Shown: in pieces, positions 45,420-62,966 of the stretch
Numbering within the stretch: position 1 is the first letter of the stretch
Layout: every line of letters starts with the position of its first letter
NCBI RefSeq assembly: GCF_017114995.1
Contig: NZ_JABXKL010000108.1
Coordinates: 1-64,000, forward strand
Direction of reading: 5' to 3'
Origin: Nostoc sp. NMS9
GTDB lineage: Bacteria; Cyanobacteriota; Cyanobacteriia; Cyanobacteriales; Nostocaceae
Length of the DNA: 64,000 nt
Position numbers and translations under genes: made by a program
Notes under the pieces: model-generated
Told to the model about the DNA's origin: nothing
What the model saw: only the letters and a program-made list of their open reading frames with translations
The model's database searches: none

Positions 45420-46586
45420 ATGGCAGACAAACCCAAAGAAATAGAAGTGAATAAATTAGTTAATTTACCCAGAGAAACTTCAGAAGTAAAAATCCAGACT
45501 CAATCATCAGTAGAAAATGAACCGTCTATAGTAGAGTCTTTGATTAAAACTGTTGCTGAGACTGGCCAAGCAGTTTTAGACACAGCAATAGGGGTGGGAG
45601 AAGCAACAGCGAAAGAAACACACAAGTTCATTGAGCAAACAACTCAAACCAGCGGTCAGGTTGTAAATCGCCTCAGCGAAAATTGGCTAATTAGAAAACT
45701 GTCTGGAGTATTAAATCTCAATTGGCTGATTAGCGATACTAACCTTGTTGATTTGGAACGAGCAGAAGCGGCAGTAAACAAACTCAAGAAACAGTATCCA
45801 AATGAATCACCCAGCCAGATTGCTCACCGAATCATGGTGGAAAAAGCCACTCAAGCAGCCACAGTTGGACTAGCCACTAGTTTTTTGCCAGGAATAGCAG
45901 TGGCATTGTTGGCAATTGATTTAACAGCCACAACAAAATTGCAATCAGAAATGCTTTATCAAATTGCATCTGTCTACGGGCTAGATTTAAAAGATCCAGC
46001 CCGTAAAGGTGAAATTTTAGCAATTTTTGGGTTGGCTTTGGGTGGAGGTCGTTTGTTGAAAGCTGCGGGGTTAGGCTTGTTGCGAAATGTGCCCTTAGCG
46101 GGTGCAGTGATTGGAGCTAGTTCAAATGCAACGATGATCTATTCATTGGGGTATGCTGCTTGTCGATTTTACGAAACCAAGCTGGATGAATCAACTTCCT
46201 TGGCATCGCCACAGACATTGGCAACATTAAAAGCCGAAAGTGAAAAGTATCTAGAAAGTGCGATCGCTCAACAAGCTCTCATGGATCAAATCTTAGTTCA
46301 CATGATCCTAGCTAGTCATCCAGAAAAGACTTGGCAAGAAATTTTACCAGAATTAAAAGCTTTAAACCTCAGTCCTACTTCGTTGGATGCCATTGCCCAA
46401 AATATCAAATCGCCCAAGCCTTTAGATGTATTGCTCAATCAACTGAATCGTGATTTTGCCATACCCTTGTTGGCTCAATGTTACAAAATTGCCCAGCTTG
46501 ATAATCAGATTACAGCAGTTGAGCAAAAAATAATAAAAGCGATCGCCAGCAAATTTGACATTGACACAAATAAAATTGGAGGATAG
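45420..46586 (+). CDS. EcsC/DUF697-like membrane-associated protein
   Basis: From ATG 45420 the protein has 388 residues; the open frame runs back to 45285 but that part looks like untranslated leader. An N-terminal Glu/Thr-rich region (1-110) precedes the core. The core has AHRIMVEKATQAATVGLATS, LPGIAVALLAIDLTATTKLQ, then MLYQIASVYGLDLKDPARKG and GAVIGASSNATMIYSLGYAA with FYE. This resembles EcsC/DUF697 proteins, which have two hydrophobic hairpins. The role is unknown. The start region is duplicated at 44508, on the other side of the PIN-like/DUF3349 cassette. Confidence 0.72.
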   Translation: MADKPKEIEVNKLVNLPRETSEVKIQTQSSVENEPSIVESLIKTVAETGQAVLDTAIGVGEATAKETHKFIEQTTQTSGQVVNRLSENWLIRKLSGVLNLNWLISDTNLVDLERAEAAVNKLKKQYPNESPSQIAHRIMVEKATQAATVGLATSFLPGIAVALLAIDLTATTKLQSEMLYQIASVYGLDLKDPARKGEILAIFGLALGGGRLLKAAGLGLLRNVPLAGAVIGASSNATMIYSLGYAACRFYETKLDESTSLASPQTLATLKAESEKYLESAIAQQALMDQILVHMILASHPEKTWQEILPELKALNLSPTSLDAIAQNIKSPKPLDVLLNQLNRDFAIPLLAQCYKIAQLDNQITAVEQKIIKAIASKFDIDTNKIGG

Positions 46587-46626
46587 GGCATAGGGCTTTG
46601 GGCATAGGACAGGAAGTAAAAGAGTA

Positions 46627-46836
46627 GAGTTCATAGCTTCATTAACGAATATCAAAGACTCATTAACGGAGTTCTGAGGTGGATTGACGAGGATCAAAGA
46701 CTCGTTAACGGAGTTCATAGCTTCATTAACGAATATCAAAGACTCGTTAACGGAGTTCTGAGGTGGATTAATGAGGATCAAAGACTCATTAACGGAGTTC
46801 TGAGGTGGATTGACGAGGATCAAAGACTCGTTAACG
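46627..46836. repeat. 42-bp minisatellite, five units
   Basis: Five head-to-tail units of exactly 42 bp occupy 46627-46836. Two types occur: GAGTTCATAGCTTCATTAAC.. (units 1 and 3) and GAGTTCTGAGGTGGATTGAC.. (units 2, 4 and 5), and both end in TCAAAGACTC(A/G)TTAACG. As 42 is a multiple of 3, an open frame of 14-residue repeats (VNESLI..NPPQNS) appears on the minus strand, but it overlaps the EcsC-like gene and has no clear start signal. The last unit ends in the palindrome CTCGTTAACGAG. Confidence 0.9.
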
Positions 46837-46994
46837 AGTGCTATTTATACTAATTCGTTAAGTTATACTTACTGATCCCTGCTCCCTCATGCCCAATGCC
46901 CAATTCCCCATGCCCAATCCCCACTCCCCTCACCATGAAACCAGAATTTTGAGCAATACTGGTACAAGAAGGAATATTTACACAAAATCCCAAA

Positions 46995-48476: not shown

Positions 48477-48590
48477 GGAGCAGGGGGAGATGGGGGAGCA
48501 AACAAATGATTATTATTCTTCCTCATCCCCCTCATCCTCCTCATCTTCCTCATCCCAATGCCCCATGCCCCATGCCCAATACTTAACAAT
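48477..48590. repeat. Purine/pyrimidine and CCCATGCCC repeat after pepA
   Basis: GGGGAGTAGGGAGCAGGGGG on the left and CCTCATCCCCCTCATCCTCC on the right can pair imperfectly. The stretch then has CAATGCCCCATGCCCCATGC. The same sequence types occur before pepA (46875-46930) and, remarkably, within the mutS2 coding sequence at 61779-61835. Confidence 0.6.
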
Positions 48591-60542: not shown

Positions 60543-62966
60543 TTGATCCAATCTGAAACCTTAGAATTATTAGAATGGCATCGCCTGTGCCAGCACCTTG
60601 CTACCTTTGCGGCAACTAAGCTGGGGGCGACAGCTGCGCGTCATCTGAAAATACCTGATTCTCAGAGCCAAAGCGAACAGTTGTTAGAGCAAACCAAAGA
60701 AATCTACCAACTGGAAAGTCGCCTGACCACGGGACTGTCATTTGAAGGAATTCAAGATATTGGCGATTCCCTAGAACGGGCAGAACGCAGTGGAGTTTTG
60801 GCAGGGGACGAACTGTTAGCGATCGCCACCACCCTCTCTGGTGCCAGAAATTTGCGCCGTGTCATCGACAATCAAGAAGATTTGCCGATATTGACTGATT
60901 TGGTTGCCGATTTGCGGACTTATCCCGAACTAGAACAGGAAATTCACCGCTGTATTGATGAACGGGCCCAGGTAACTGACCGCGCGAGTCAAAAACTGGG
61001 AGAAATTCGTACAGATTTGCGGCGATTACGCAGCCAAATTACTCAAAAGCTGCAAAATATCTTACAGGCAAAATCCGGCGCAGTTCAAGAACAGCTGATT
61101 ACACAACGGAGCGATCGCTTTGTTATCCCCGTAAAAGCACCCCAAAAAGATGCCATACCCGGTATAGTCCACGATACCTCTACCAGCGGTGCCACTCTAT
61201 ATGTGGAACCGAATTCAGTAGTACCTCTAGGCAACCAACTGCGGCAGATCATCAGAAGAGAGCAAGCCGAAGAAGAAACGATTCGCCGCATTTTGACAGA
61301 ACTTGTAGCCGCAGTCAAACCAGATTTAGAGAGGTTATTAGCGATCGCTACCACTTTGGATCTGGCAACCGCTAGATCGCGATATAGTTTCTGGCTAGGA
61401 GCGAATCCGCCGCGATTTATCCAGCGTGAAGACAGAGAAATCATTACCTTGCGGAACTTAAGACATCCTCTGTTAGTGTGGCAACAACAGCACGAACAAG
61501 GGCAACCAGTAGTTCCTGTAGATTTGCTGATTAGTCCGCAAATTCGGGTAGTGACGATTACCGGGCCTAATACTGGCGGTAAAACTGTAACCTTAAAAAC
61601 TTTGGGGTTAGCAGCATTAATGGCCAAAGTGGGTTTATTTGTCCCTGCCCGCGAACCAGTAGAAATACCTTGGTTTGATAAAGTGCTGGCAGATATTGGC
61701 GATGAACAATCCTTACAGCAAAGTTTATCCACATTCTCTGGACACATCCGCCGAATTAGTCGGATTTTAGAAGCATTGGGGGATGAGGGGGATAAGGGAG
61801 ATGGGGGACAATCCAATGCCCTATGCCCCATGCCCAATTCCCTAGTTTTACTTGATGAAGTTGGCGCTGGCACCGATCCAGTAGAAGGTAGTGCTTTAGC
61901 GATCGCCTTGTTGCAATATCTCGCCAACCATGCCCAGCTAACTATTGCCACCACTCACTTCGGCGAACTAAAAGCCCTGAAATACGAAGACGATCGGTTT
62001 GAAAATGCCTCTGTAGAATTTGACGAAAGTACTTTGTCGCCTACTTACCGTCTGCTGTGGGGGATCCCCGGACGTTCTAACGCCCTGACAATTGCCCTGC
62101 GCTTGGGATTAAAACCAGAAGTTGTACAACAGGCAAAAACCCAAGTTGGAGAAGCCACAGATGAAGTTAACCAGGTGATTGCTGGCTTAGAAGCCCAACG
62201 CCGCCGCCAGGAAACCAAAGCTGCGGAAGCCCAAGTTTTGTTGCAGCAAGCGGAACGTTTATATAAAGAAGTATCTGCAAAAGCCGCAAGTTTGGAGGAA
62301 AGGGAAAGCAGTTTGCGGGCTTCACAGGAAGTAGCAGTGCAACAAGCGATCGCTCAGGCAAAAGGTGAAATTGCCCAAGTAATCCGCCGCTTGCAGAAAG
62401 GTACGCCCACAGCCCAAGAAGCCCAGCAAGCAACTAATGCTTTGAATCAAATTGGCCAACAATATCAGCCAGCAACGCCAGCAAAACCAAAAGTTGGGTT
62501 TATGCCCAAAATAGGCGATCGCATCCGCGTTCCCAAATTGGGACAGATAGCAGAAGTGATCGCTGCCCCCGATCAAGATGGCGAGTTAAGCGTTCGCTTT
62601 GGGCTAATGAAGATGACTGTGAAGTTGGAAGACGTAGAATCTTTAGATGGTCAAAAAGCAGAACCAGTTGTCAAACCCAAACCAGCCCCAGCAGTAGTAA
62701 CCCCGCCACCGCAAAATGTCCCAGAAATTCGGACTTCCCAAAACACCATTGATTTGCGTGGTAAACGGGTGGCTGATGCCGAATACATTTTAGATAAAGC
62801 CATCTCAGAAGCTACAGGCCCAGTCTGGATTATTCACGGCTATGGCACTGGTAAGCTACGACAAGGAGTTCACGCCTTTTTGCAACAGCATTCCAGAGTG
62901 AACAACTACGAACCAGCAGAACAAGCAGATGGCGGCAGTGGTGTTACCGTTGTTCATATAAAATAA
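60543..62966 (+). CDS. mutS2: Endonuclease MutS2
   Basis: MutS2 lacks the mismatch-binding N-terminal domains of MutS; it suppresses recombination or rescues collided ribosomes in other bacteria. The 807-residue protein has a core/clamp region (1-300), an ABC ATPase (Walker A GPNTGGKT at 341-348, Walker B LVLLDEVGAGTDP), a coiled coil (about 520-630), a KOW-like region and a C-terminal Smr nuclease domain (about 735-807, IDLRGKRVADAEYILDKAI). Residues about 413-431 (GDEGDKGDGGQSNALCPMP) are an extra loop, encoded by intergenic-repeat-like DNA, directly before the Walker B strand. No in-frame ATG precedes TTG 60543, which I take as the start. Confidence 0.93.
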   Translation: MIQSETLELLEWHRLCQHLATFAATKLGATAARHLKIPDSQSQSEQLLEQTKEIYQLESRLTTGLSFEGIQDIGDSLERAERSGVLAGDELLAIATTLSGARNLRRVIDNQEDLPILTDLVADLRTYPELEQEIHRCIDERAQVTDRASQKLGEIRTDLRRLRSQITQKLQNILQAKSGAVQEQLITQRSDRFVIPVKAPQKDAIPGIVHDTSTSGATLYVEPNSVVPLGNQLRQIIRREQAEEETIRRILTELVAAVKPDLERLLAIATTLDLATARSRYSFWLGANPPRFIQREDREIITLRNLRHPLLVWQQQHEQGQPVVPVDLLISPQIRVVTITGPNTGGKTVTLKTLGLAALMAKVGLFVPAREPVEIPWFDKVLADIGDEQSLQQSLSTFSGHIRRISRILEALGDEGDKGDGGQSNALCPMPNSLVLLDEVGAGTDPVEGSALAIALLQYLANHAQLTIATTHFGELKALKYEDDRFENASVEFDESTLSPTYRLLWGIPGRSNALTIALRLGLKPEVVQQAKTQVGEATDEVNQVIAGLEAQRRRQETKAAEAQVLLQQAERLYKEVSAKAASLEERESSLRASQEVAVQQAIAQAKGEIAQVIRRLQKGTPTAQEAQQATNALNQIGQQYQPATPAKPKVGFMPKIGDRIRVPKLGQIAEVIAAPDQDGELSVRFGLMKMTVKLEDVESLDGQKAEPVVKPKPAPAVVTPPPQNVPEIRTSQNTIDLRGKRVADAEYILDKAISEATGPVWIIHGYGTGKLRQGVHAFLQQHSRVNNYEPAEQADGGSGVTVVHIK

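Follow-up and report, generated by a model that had tools for sequence, protein, structure and literature searches.

In-frame dispersed repeats in a loop of the MutS2 ATPase domain of Nostoc and related cyanobacteria

In Nostoc and many of its relatives, MutS2, a protein of repair and ribosome rescue, has a loop before its Walker B strand that consists largely of short repeats. These repeats are otherwise mostly intergenic, and in the loop they are kept in frame. The window discussed here is a stretch of 64,000 nucleotides of Nostoc sp. NMS9 DNA, which carries one such loop together with several of its intergenic relatives.

The mutS2 insert and its relatives in the Nostoc sp. NMS9 genome

The mutS2 host gene occupies positions 60543..62966 of the plus strand and encodes 807 aa from a TTG start in the ORF list. 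Its product scores 912.2 bits against the NCBIfam mutS2 profile TIGR01069 (cut-off 400), which places it within MutS2, and phmmer matches it to the B. subtilis MutS2 of PDB 7qv3 with an E value of 5.4e-132. Residues 413-431 (GDEGDKGDGGQSNALCPMP) are encoded by an in-frame, repeat-derived insert of 57 bp at 61779..61835 (+), which lies between the helix RISRILEAL and the Walker B segment NSLVLLDEVGAGTDP and is recognized by its own sequence and by repeat matches in the genome. Two arms can be distinguished from matches in the window and in the rest of the genome. The left arm (61778..61808, +) is composed of G-rich 9-bp units of the GGGGGATGA type and encodes GDEGDKGDGG. The right arm (61813..61838, +) is composed of C-rich 7-bp units of the CCCATGC type and encodes NALCPMPN. 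On either side, the ATPase motifs are unbroken: Walker A (GPNTGGKT) is found at 61563..61586 (+), where residues 341-348 are invariant among 40 aligned MutS2 proteins, and the Walker B strand (LVLLDE) adjoins the end of the loop at 61842..61859 (+), with residues 434 and 436-439 invariant among the same number of proteins.

A sequence-only reading of the window had described this segment as a dispersed, mainly intergenic repeat that sits in frame and leaves the ATPase motifs unbroken, and the description holds, given at least 57 matches in the genome and intact Walker A and B motifs. The same reading counted 19 extra residues at a point where MutS2 normally has only a short turn. B. subtilis MutS2 (PDB 7qv3) does have such a turn, and its alignment shows a 17-residue gap at the insert; 19 residues are encoded by 61779-61835, but by this alignment 17 are extra. 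Mean pLDDT in AlphaFold models of MutS2 is 47.8 for the full length and 41.7 for the ATPase domain. Because this confidence is too low for use, statements on exposure and disorder of the loop draw on what is generally known about the MutS/ABC fold, in which the loop is presumably distal to the ATP site.

Relatives of the insert are present in the genome far above chance. A 76-bp query returns at least 57 matches at E <= 10, itself included, in the 8.09-Mb genome, a lower bound derived from scoring 40 of 251 first-look candidates. Among the matches listed, nine besides the query cover both arms, with identities of 74-82% and a best E value of 2.5e-11. Eight of these nine were compared by sequence and carry the arms in the same order as the mutS2 insert. 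Intergenic copies outside the gene, whose absence would have counted against a dispersed repeat, do occur.

Within the window, intergenic repeats had been reported near 46880-46930 and 48480-48590. They are real relatives of the insert that reside between larger ORFs, although they are not identical to it, the best match being 26 bp with one mismatch. The copy of the right-arm repeat at 46884..46922 (+) agrees with the insert at 90% over 30 bp (46893-46922). The cluster at 48485..48580 (+) carries left-arm type repeats on both strands beside the right-arm type. Here, the left arm has a 21-bp match with 90% identity on the minus strand (48517-48537), and 48555-48580 gives the 26-bp match to the right arm (E 3.6e-7). 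With multiple copies located mainly outside genes, the insert belongs to the dispersed intergenic tandem repeats. In a 464-kb sample of this genome, 12-mers with six or more occurrences outside ORFs account for 0.17% of the bases within ORFs and 3.17% of the remaining bases, a control that is partly circular because its word list was drawn from the noncoding part. Elsewhere in the window, a spurious-looking ORF at 46422-46823 (-) consists of tandem NPPQNSVNESL units and is probably an intergenic tandem repeat.

Spread, repeat content and turnover of the loop

A mutS2 match occurs in 214 of 217 genomes of the family (53 Nostoc among these) and in 366 of 386 genomes of the phylum. The 53 Nostoc genomes yielded 51 loops, since G006 retains only the C-terminus and G032 has a contig break at the loop. 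All 51 readable loops are extended, with 22-70 aa between set anchors compared to a minimal 14. The sample of Nostocaceae outside Nostoc combined 30 genomes whose alignment was split at the loop with 40 others, and 66 of these 70 loops were readable; the unread loci among the 30 are L091, L107, L108 and L113. Other families were represented by 50 loci, with split alignments favoured, of which 47 were readable. Three (L167, L178 and L179) gave no measured loop, and L167 was left out of the length set and inspected separately as sequence. Counts based on split alignments do not describe a random sample, because those genomes were chosen as promising long inserts.

Many other Nostocaceae loops are also extended, often by different repeat families, with units such as GGAGTCA, GGGGAGCA, AGTGCTGAG with CTCAGCACT, and further ones. 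Loops from other families range from 14 to 96 aa over the 47 loci, and some of them carry repeats as well. For example, locus L193 (genome G404, from another family of the same order) has a perfect 30-bp palindrome, TGTAGGGGCGAACGGCCGTTCGCCCCTACA, that is in frame and encodes 10 of the 22 residues of its MutS2 loop. By set anchors, the whole range of loop lengths is 14 to 106 aa. A single insertion in Nostoc sp. NMS9 alone, as the sequence-only reading had envisaged when it let one repeat enter the gene of one strain, is ruled out by the extended loops of all 51 readable Nostoc genomes and many relatives, where other repeat families are often involved. The opposite outcome, the same loop with unrelated codons in all cyanobacteria, is approached only in part: the codons themselves mostly belong to tandem repeats, as in 43 of 51 Nostoc loops, and the loop is no longer than 17 aa at 17 of 47 loci from other families.

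Tandem arrays with periods of 6-10 were scored against base shuffles, using upstream coding DNA of the same length as a control. Significant arrays are present in 43 of 51 Nostoc loops, in 47 of 66 loops from other Nostocaceae, and in 9 of the 30 loops from other families (among 47) that are long enough to test. The control yields none in any group. Eight of the 51 Nostoc loops fail this test, and complex non-tandem repeats are found inside loops L048, L079, L082, L084 and L170.

For the loops tested, the repeat words are typical of the host genome or its close relatives. Forty candidates were scored per genome in these counts, such that the larger figures are lower bounds. For the G024 loop, at least 44 matches occur within G024 (self included) and at least 43 in the close relative G012, compared with 13 in G087, 4 in G000 and 3 in G005; five further genomes have none. 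A shortened form of the G115 loop has at least 99 matches in G115 (self included) and at least 97 in G118. The same query gives at least 67, at least 44, at least 43 and 27 matches in four Nostoc genomes, and 0-1 in four others.

The reading frame is preserved across these changes. When loop length is measured between two DNA anchors and frame is ignored, 221 of 223 loci fall into one class modulo 3 (253 loci were tried and 223 anchored; the named and unnamed sets of loci overlap in part, such that the 80 named loci are not independent). Frameshifts or stops are seen inside the MutS2 loops of L091 (G085) and L108 (G188), where runs of C may have caused assembly errors. At L077 (G003), a frameshift lies immediately downstream of the Walker B motif of mutS2, and the gene has stops along its length. 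The frameshifts at all three loci may reflect either decay or assembly error. It was also considered that mutS2 might avoid the intergenic spacer AATAAC because of the stops it forms, but frames read by eye gave this idea no support.

Loops turn over rapidly. Among 50 Nostoc loops compared, 49 are distinct, and they have 23 lengths. Changes of loop family were counted on a tree built from 1.9 kb of mutS2 DNA flanking the loop, which holds 50 of 51 rows and has good support for 20 of 47 inner branches. Families were typed by rough patterns, and three loops without a left label and one without a right label were excluded. Left-arm families change 20 times over 47 labelled rows, compared to a mean of 25.8 (sd 1.8, minimum 20) in 200 shuffles; right-arm families change 23 times over 49 labelled rows, compared to 25.1 (sd 1.5, minimum 21). 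The loop families therefore follow the tree, but weakly. Loops of different families are present in the closest pair of strains, 1.05% apart in flanking DNA, and also in the second-closest pair, 2.05% apart.

The core of one loop class has a single match in each of 9 of 52 genomes, and by coordinates all nine lie in the mutS2 loop. A second class has a core found in 10 of 52 genomes, where eight matches map to mutS2 by coordinates and two lie elsewhere. The window loop matches neither core within two mismatches. Because the two cores are almost confined to mutS2, many loops appear to be inherited or exchanged versions rather than fresh insertions. Such a class thus seems to originate at mutS2 and then to appear in scattered strains, seemingly by exchange or repeated loss. 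Evidence from the flanks for exchange of loop versions is weak. Over the 120 bp upstream of the loop and the 30 bp that follow it, flanks of the same class are slightly closer (ratio 0.89-0.91), with permutation p values of 0.017-0.027 that are uncorrected for 16 bins, one distant bin being lower still. A cross-clade flank test had an inconsistent outcome, and L056 entered the flank tests as class A through a loose pattern while its sequence is class B.

Other host proteins and known repeat systems

In all 20 Nostoc genomes tried, MutS1 is uninterrupted at the homologous spot, which excludes an explanation by a position that is weak in MutS folds generally. Nor is MutS2 the sole host, as demonstrated by arrays in three other proteins. 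The RecJ loop between LIQVGGV and IGFRLGP (loci L224-L253) contains a tandem array in 30 of 30 Nostoc genomes. In TilS (loci L354-L383), LR(D/E)EA is followed by variable arrays that are either of the GCATTGG type or C-rich, and 11 of 30 Nostoc genomes pass the tandem test. Upstream controls give 0 for both proteins. The CobN protein of the window genome (L014:801-3030) carries an in-frame compound array, GEQGSRGAEEQ...QCPMPHAQCPMPK. In genome G012, a CACGGAGAC/GCGTC family is common to the RecJ and MutS2 loops; over 30 genomes, word sharing between the two loops of each genome has a p value of 0.062, such that a common per-genome vocabulary is suggestive only. Of the 165 ORFs with at least 300 aa in the 464-kb sample, nine contain 12 or more interior bases that belong to repeat words, and single-word matches among these nine may be due to chance. 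Four further possible hosts are proteins that we take to be PutA, CimA, GltB and a radical SAM protein.

Dispersed repeats of this kind have precedents. The STRR sequences of heterocystous cyanobacteria are 7-bp tandem repeats in intergenic regions or RNA genes. Tandem 7-bp units are likewise found in MutS2 loops, but there they are protein-coding. The SDR elements of Nostoc punctiforme, reportedly described by Elhai et al. in 2008, are said to be 21-27-nt elements embedded in tandem heptamers. Nested complex repeats occur in several MutS2 loops and may be similar to elements of that description.

In Nostoc sp. PCC 7120, G-rich heptamers of the form GGGGA(C/T)T are dispersed through the genome and are 68% intergenic (Rehm et al. 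2015, PMC4692102), and about one third are therefore not intergenic. The term 'MutS' is absent from that article, and a recurrent protein site is not described in the sections consulted. Fourteen of 51 Nostoc mutS2 loops resemble these heptamers, being typed as GGGACT with CCCCAATC, and GGGGACT itself is present in loops of other strains. The window loop, in contrast, is built from other units and has neither GGGGATT nor GGGGACT, which places it outside a family defined by at least two GGGGA(C/T)T units.

As described in a MITE review (PMC10969869) and in PMC3733652, Rickettsia palindromic elements are dispersed repeats that occur in frame within unrelated protein genes and belong to defined families of approximately 150 bp that encode a conserved peptide. 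The repeats studied here are also found in frame in unrelated protein genes (MutS2, RecJ, TilS and CobN). Unlike the Rickettsia elements, they are short tandem units at one site that vary from strain to strain, and general pairing between the arms was not found. Their sequences and lengths differ between strains, so that the MutS2 loops do not amount to a single defined palindrome of about 150 bp that encodes a conserved peptide. A search of the open literature found no description of a MutS2 loop filled with repeats, including the available parts of PMC5101192 and PMC12292046, which is weak evidence of novelty because most subscription journals fell outside the search.

Probable origin and significance of repeat-filled loops

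Our sequence comparisons make it quite likely that a permissive turn, running from the end of the EALG helix to Walker B, has been repeatedly seeded, expanded and overwritten in Nostoc and many relatives by dispersed tandem and palindromic repeats. The turn would tolerate nearly any in-frame sequence. Seeding may occur through microhomology or template switching, given that the EALG codons (GAAGCATTGGG) resemble the GCATTGG heptamer. The loop could then grow through slippage and take up nested insertions of small mobile repeats, and whole versions could be swapped between strains via recombination. Selection would probably act mainly on frame and on the absence of stops. The loop peptide, which is rich in Gly/Asp/Glu and then in Pro/Ser/Asn, is probably disordered and mostly neutral.

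Much of the tandem structure in Nostoc loops could also arise in an ordinary low-complexity linker, an ancestral disordered loop that drifts by replication slippage and resembles intergenic DNA through the same mutation process, not through insertion or exchange. Long loops in which no repeats are visible by eye in other lineages (L159, L162, L167 and L168) are in keeping with such a linker, as is the common ancestral core that several classes may have. However, intergenic composites match both arms in the same order, loops L048, L079, L082 and L084 hold complex non-tandem repeats, and L193 has its perfect palindrome. For the G024 loop, which contains a complex repeat, the host genome has at least 44 matches, self included. 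An ordinary drifting linker is an unlikely explanation. Diversifying selection on a functional, multi-allelic peptide would keep several old loop versions in circulation, consistent with two class cores that are almost confined to mutS2 and with families scattered over the tree. Exchange of neutral loops predicts the same pattern, however, and similar arrays occur in RecJ and TilS, which are proteins of other function. Loop length, moreover, spans 14 to 106 aa. Such selection is rather improbable.

The G-rich first half and C-rich second half of 49 of 51 Nostoc loops could point to a functional nucleic-acid structure, either an mRNA hairpin or a G-quadruplex, that tunes translation or recombination and is selected while its sequence changes. 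A minority of loops do fold well: z is below -1.5 for 39% in Nostoc (51 loops), 38% in other Nostocaceae (64 loops) and 26% in other families (27 loops), where the controls give 27%, 11% and 7%, respectively. G4 patterns are found in 24 of 51 Nostoc loops on the sense strand and in 14 on the antisense strand. Nevertheless, median folding z is near that of upstream coding DNA in all three groups (-1.14 and -0.84 in Nostoc, -0.46 and -0.35 in other Nostocaceae, -0.49 and -0.14 in other families, for loop and control). Arms from the same genome pair barely better than arms combined across genomes (duplex energy p 0.17), and exact complementary words of at least nine occur in 11% and 6.6% of cases, respectively. 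Outside Nostoc, G4 patterns are found less often on the sense strand than on the antisense strand, with 16 and 20 of 66 loops in other Nostocaceae and 1 and 6 of 47 in other families. Minimal loops also occur. Folding z, arm swaps and pattern counts thus argue against a hairpin or G4 as a general property of the loop, and selection for such a structure is highly improbable.

The MutS2 loops offer dozens of insert variants at one exact site of a conserved ATPase, with frame and relatedness known. This natural series allows repeat movement, growth and replacement to be measured, and the conversion of repeats into new protein sequence to be tested. Repeat-derived segments may also be included when MutS2, RecJ and TilS of Nostoc-like cyanobacteria are aligned, annotated by length or modelled in structure. 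A bolder proposal, which we advance tentatively and consider unlikely, is that Nostoc-type genomes keep writing intergenic repeats into a few permissive protein loops, several of them in enzymes that maintain DNA and RNA (MutS2, RecJ and TilS). Versions would circulate by very short recombination tracts and alter MutS2, for example in its contacts with DNA or collided ribosomes. If this proposal is true, the MutS2 loop would be a fast-evolving module supplied by junk DNA.
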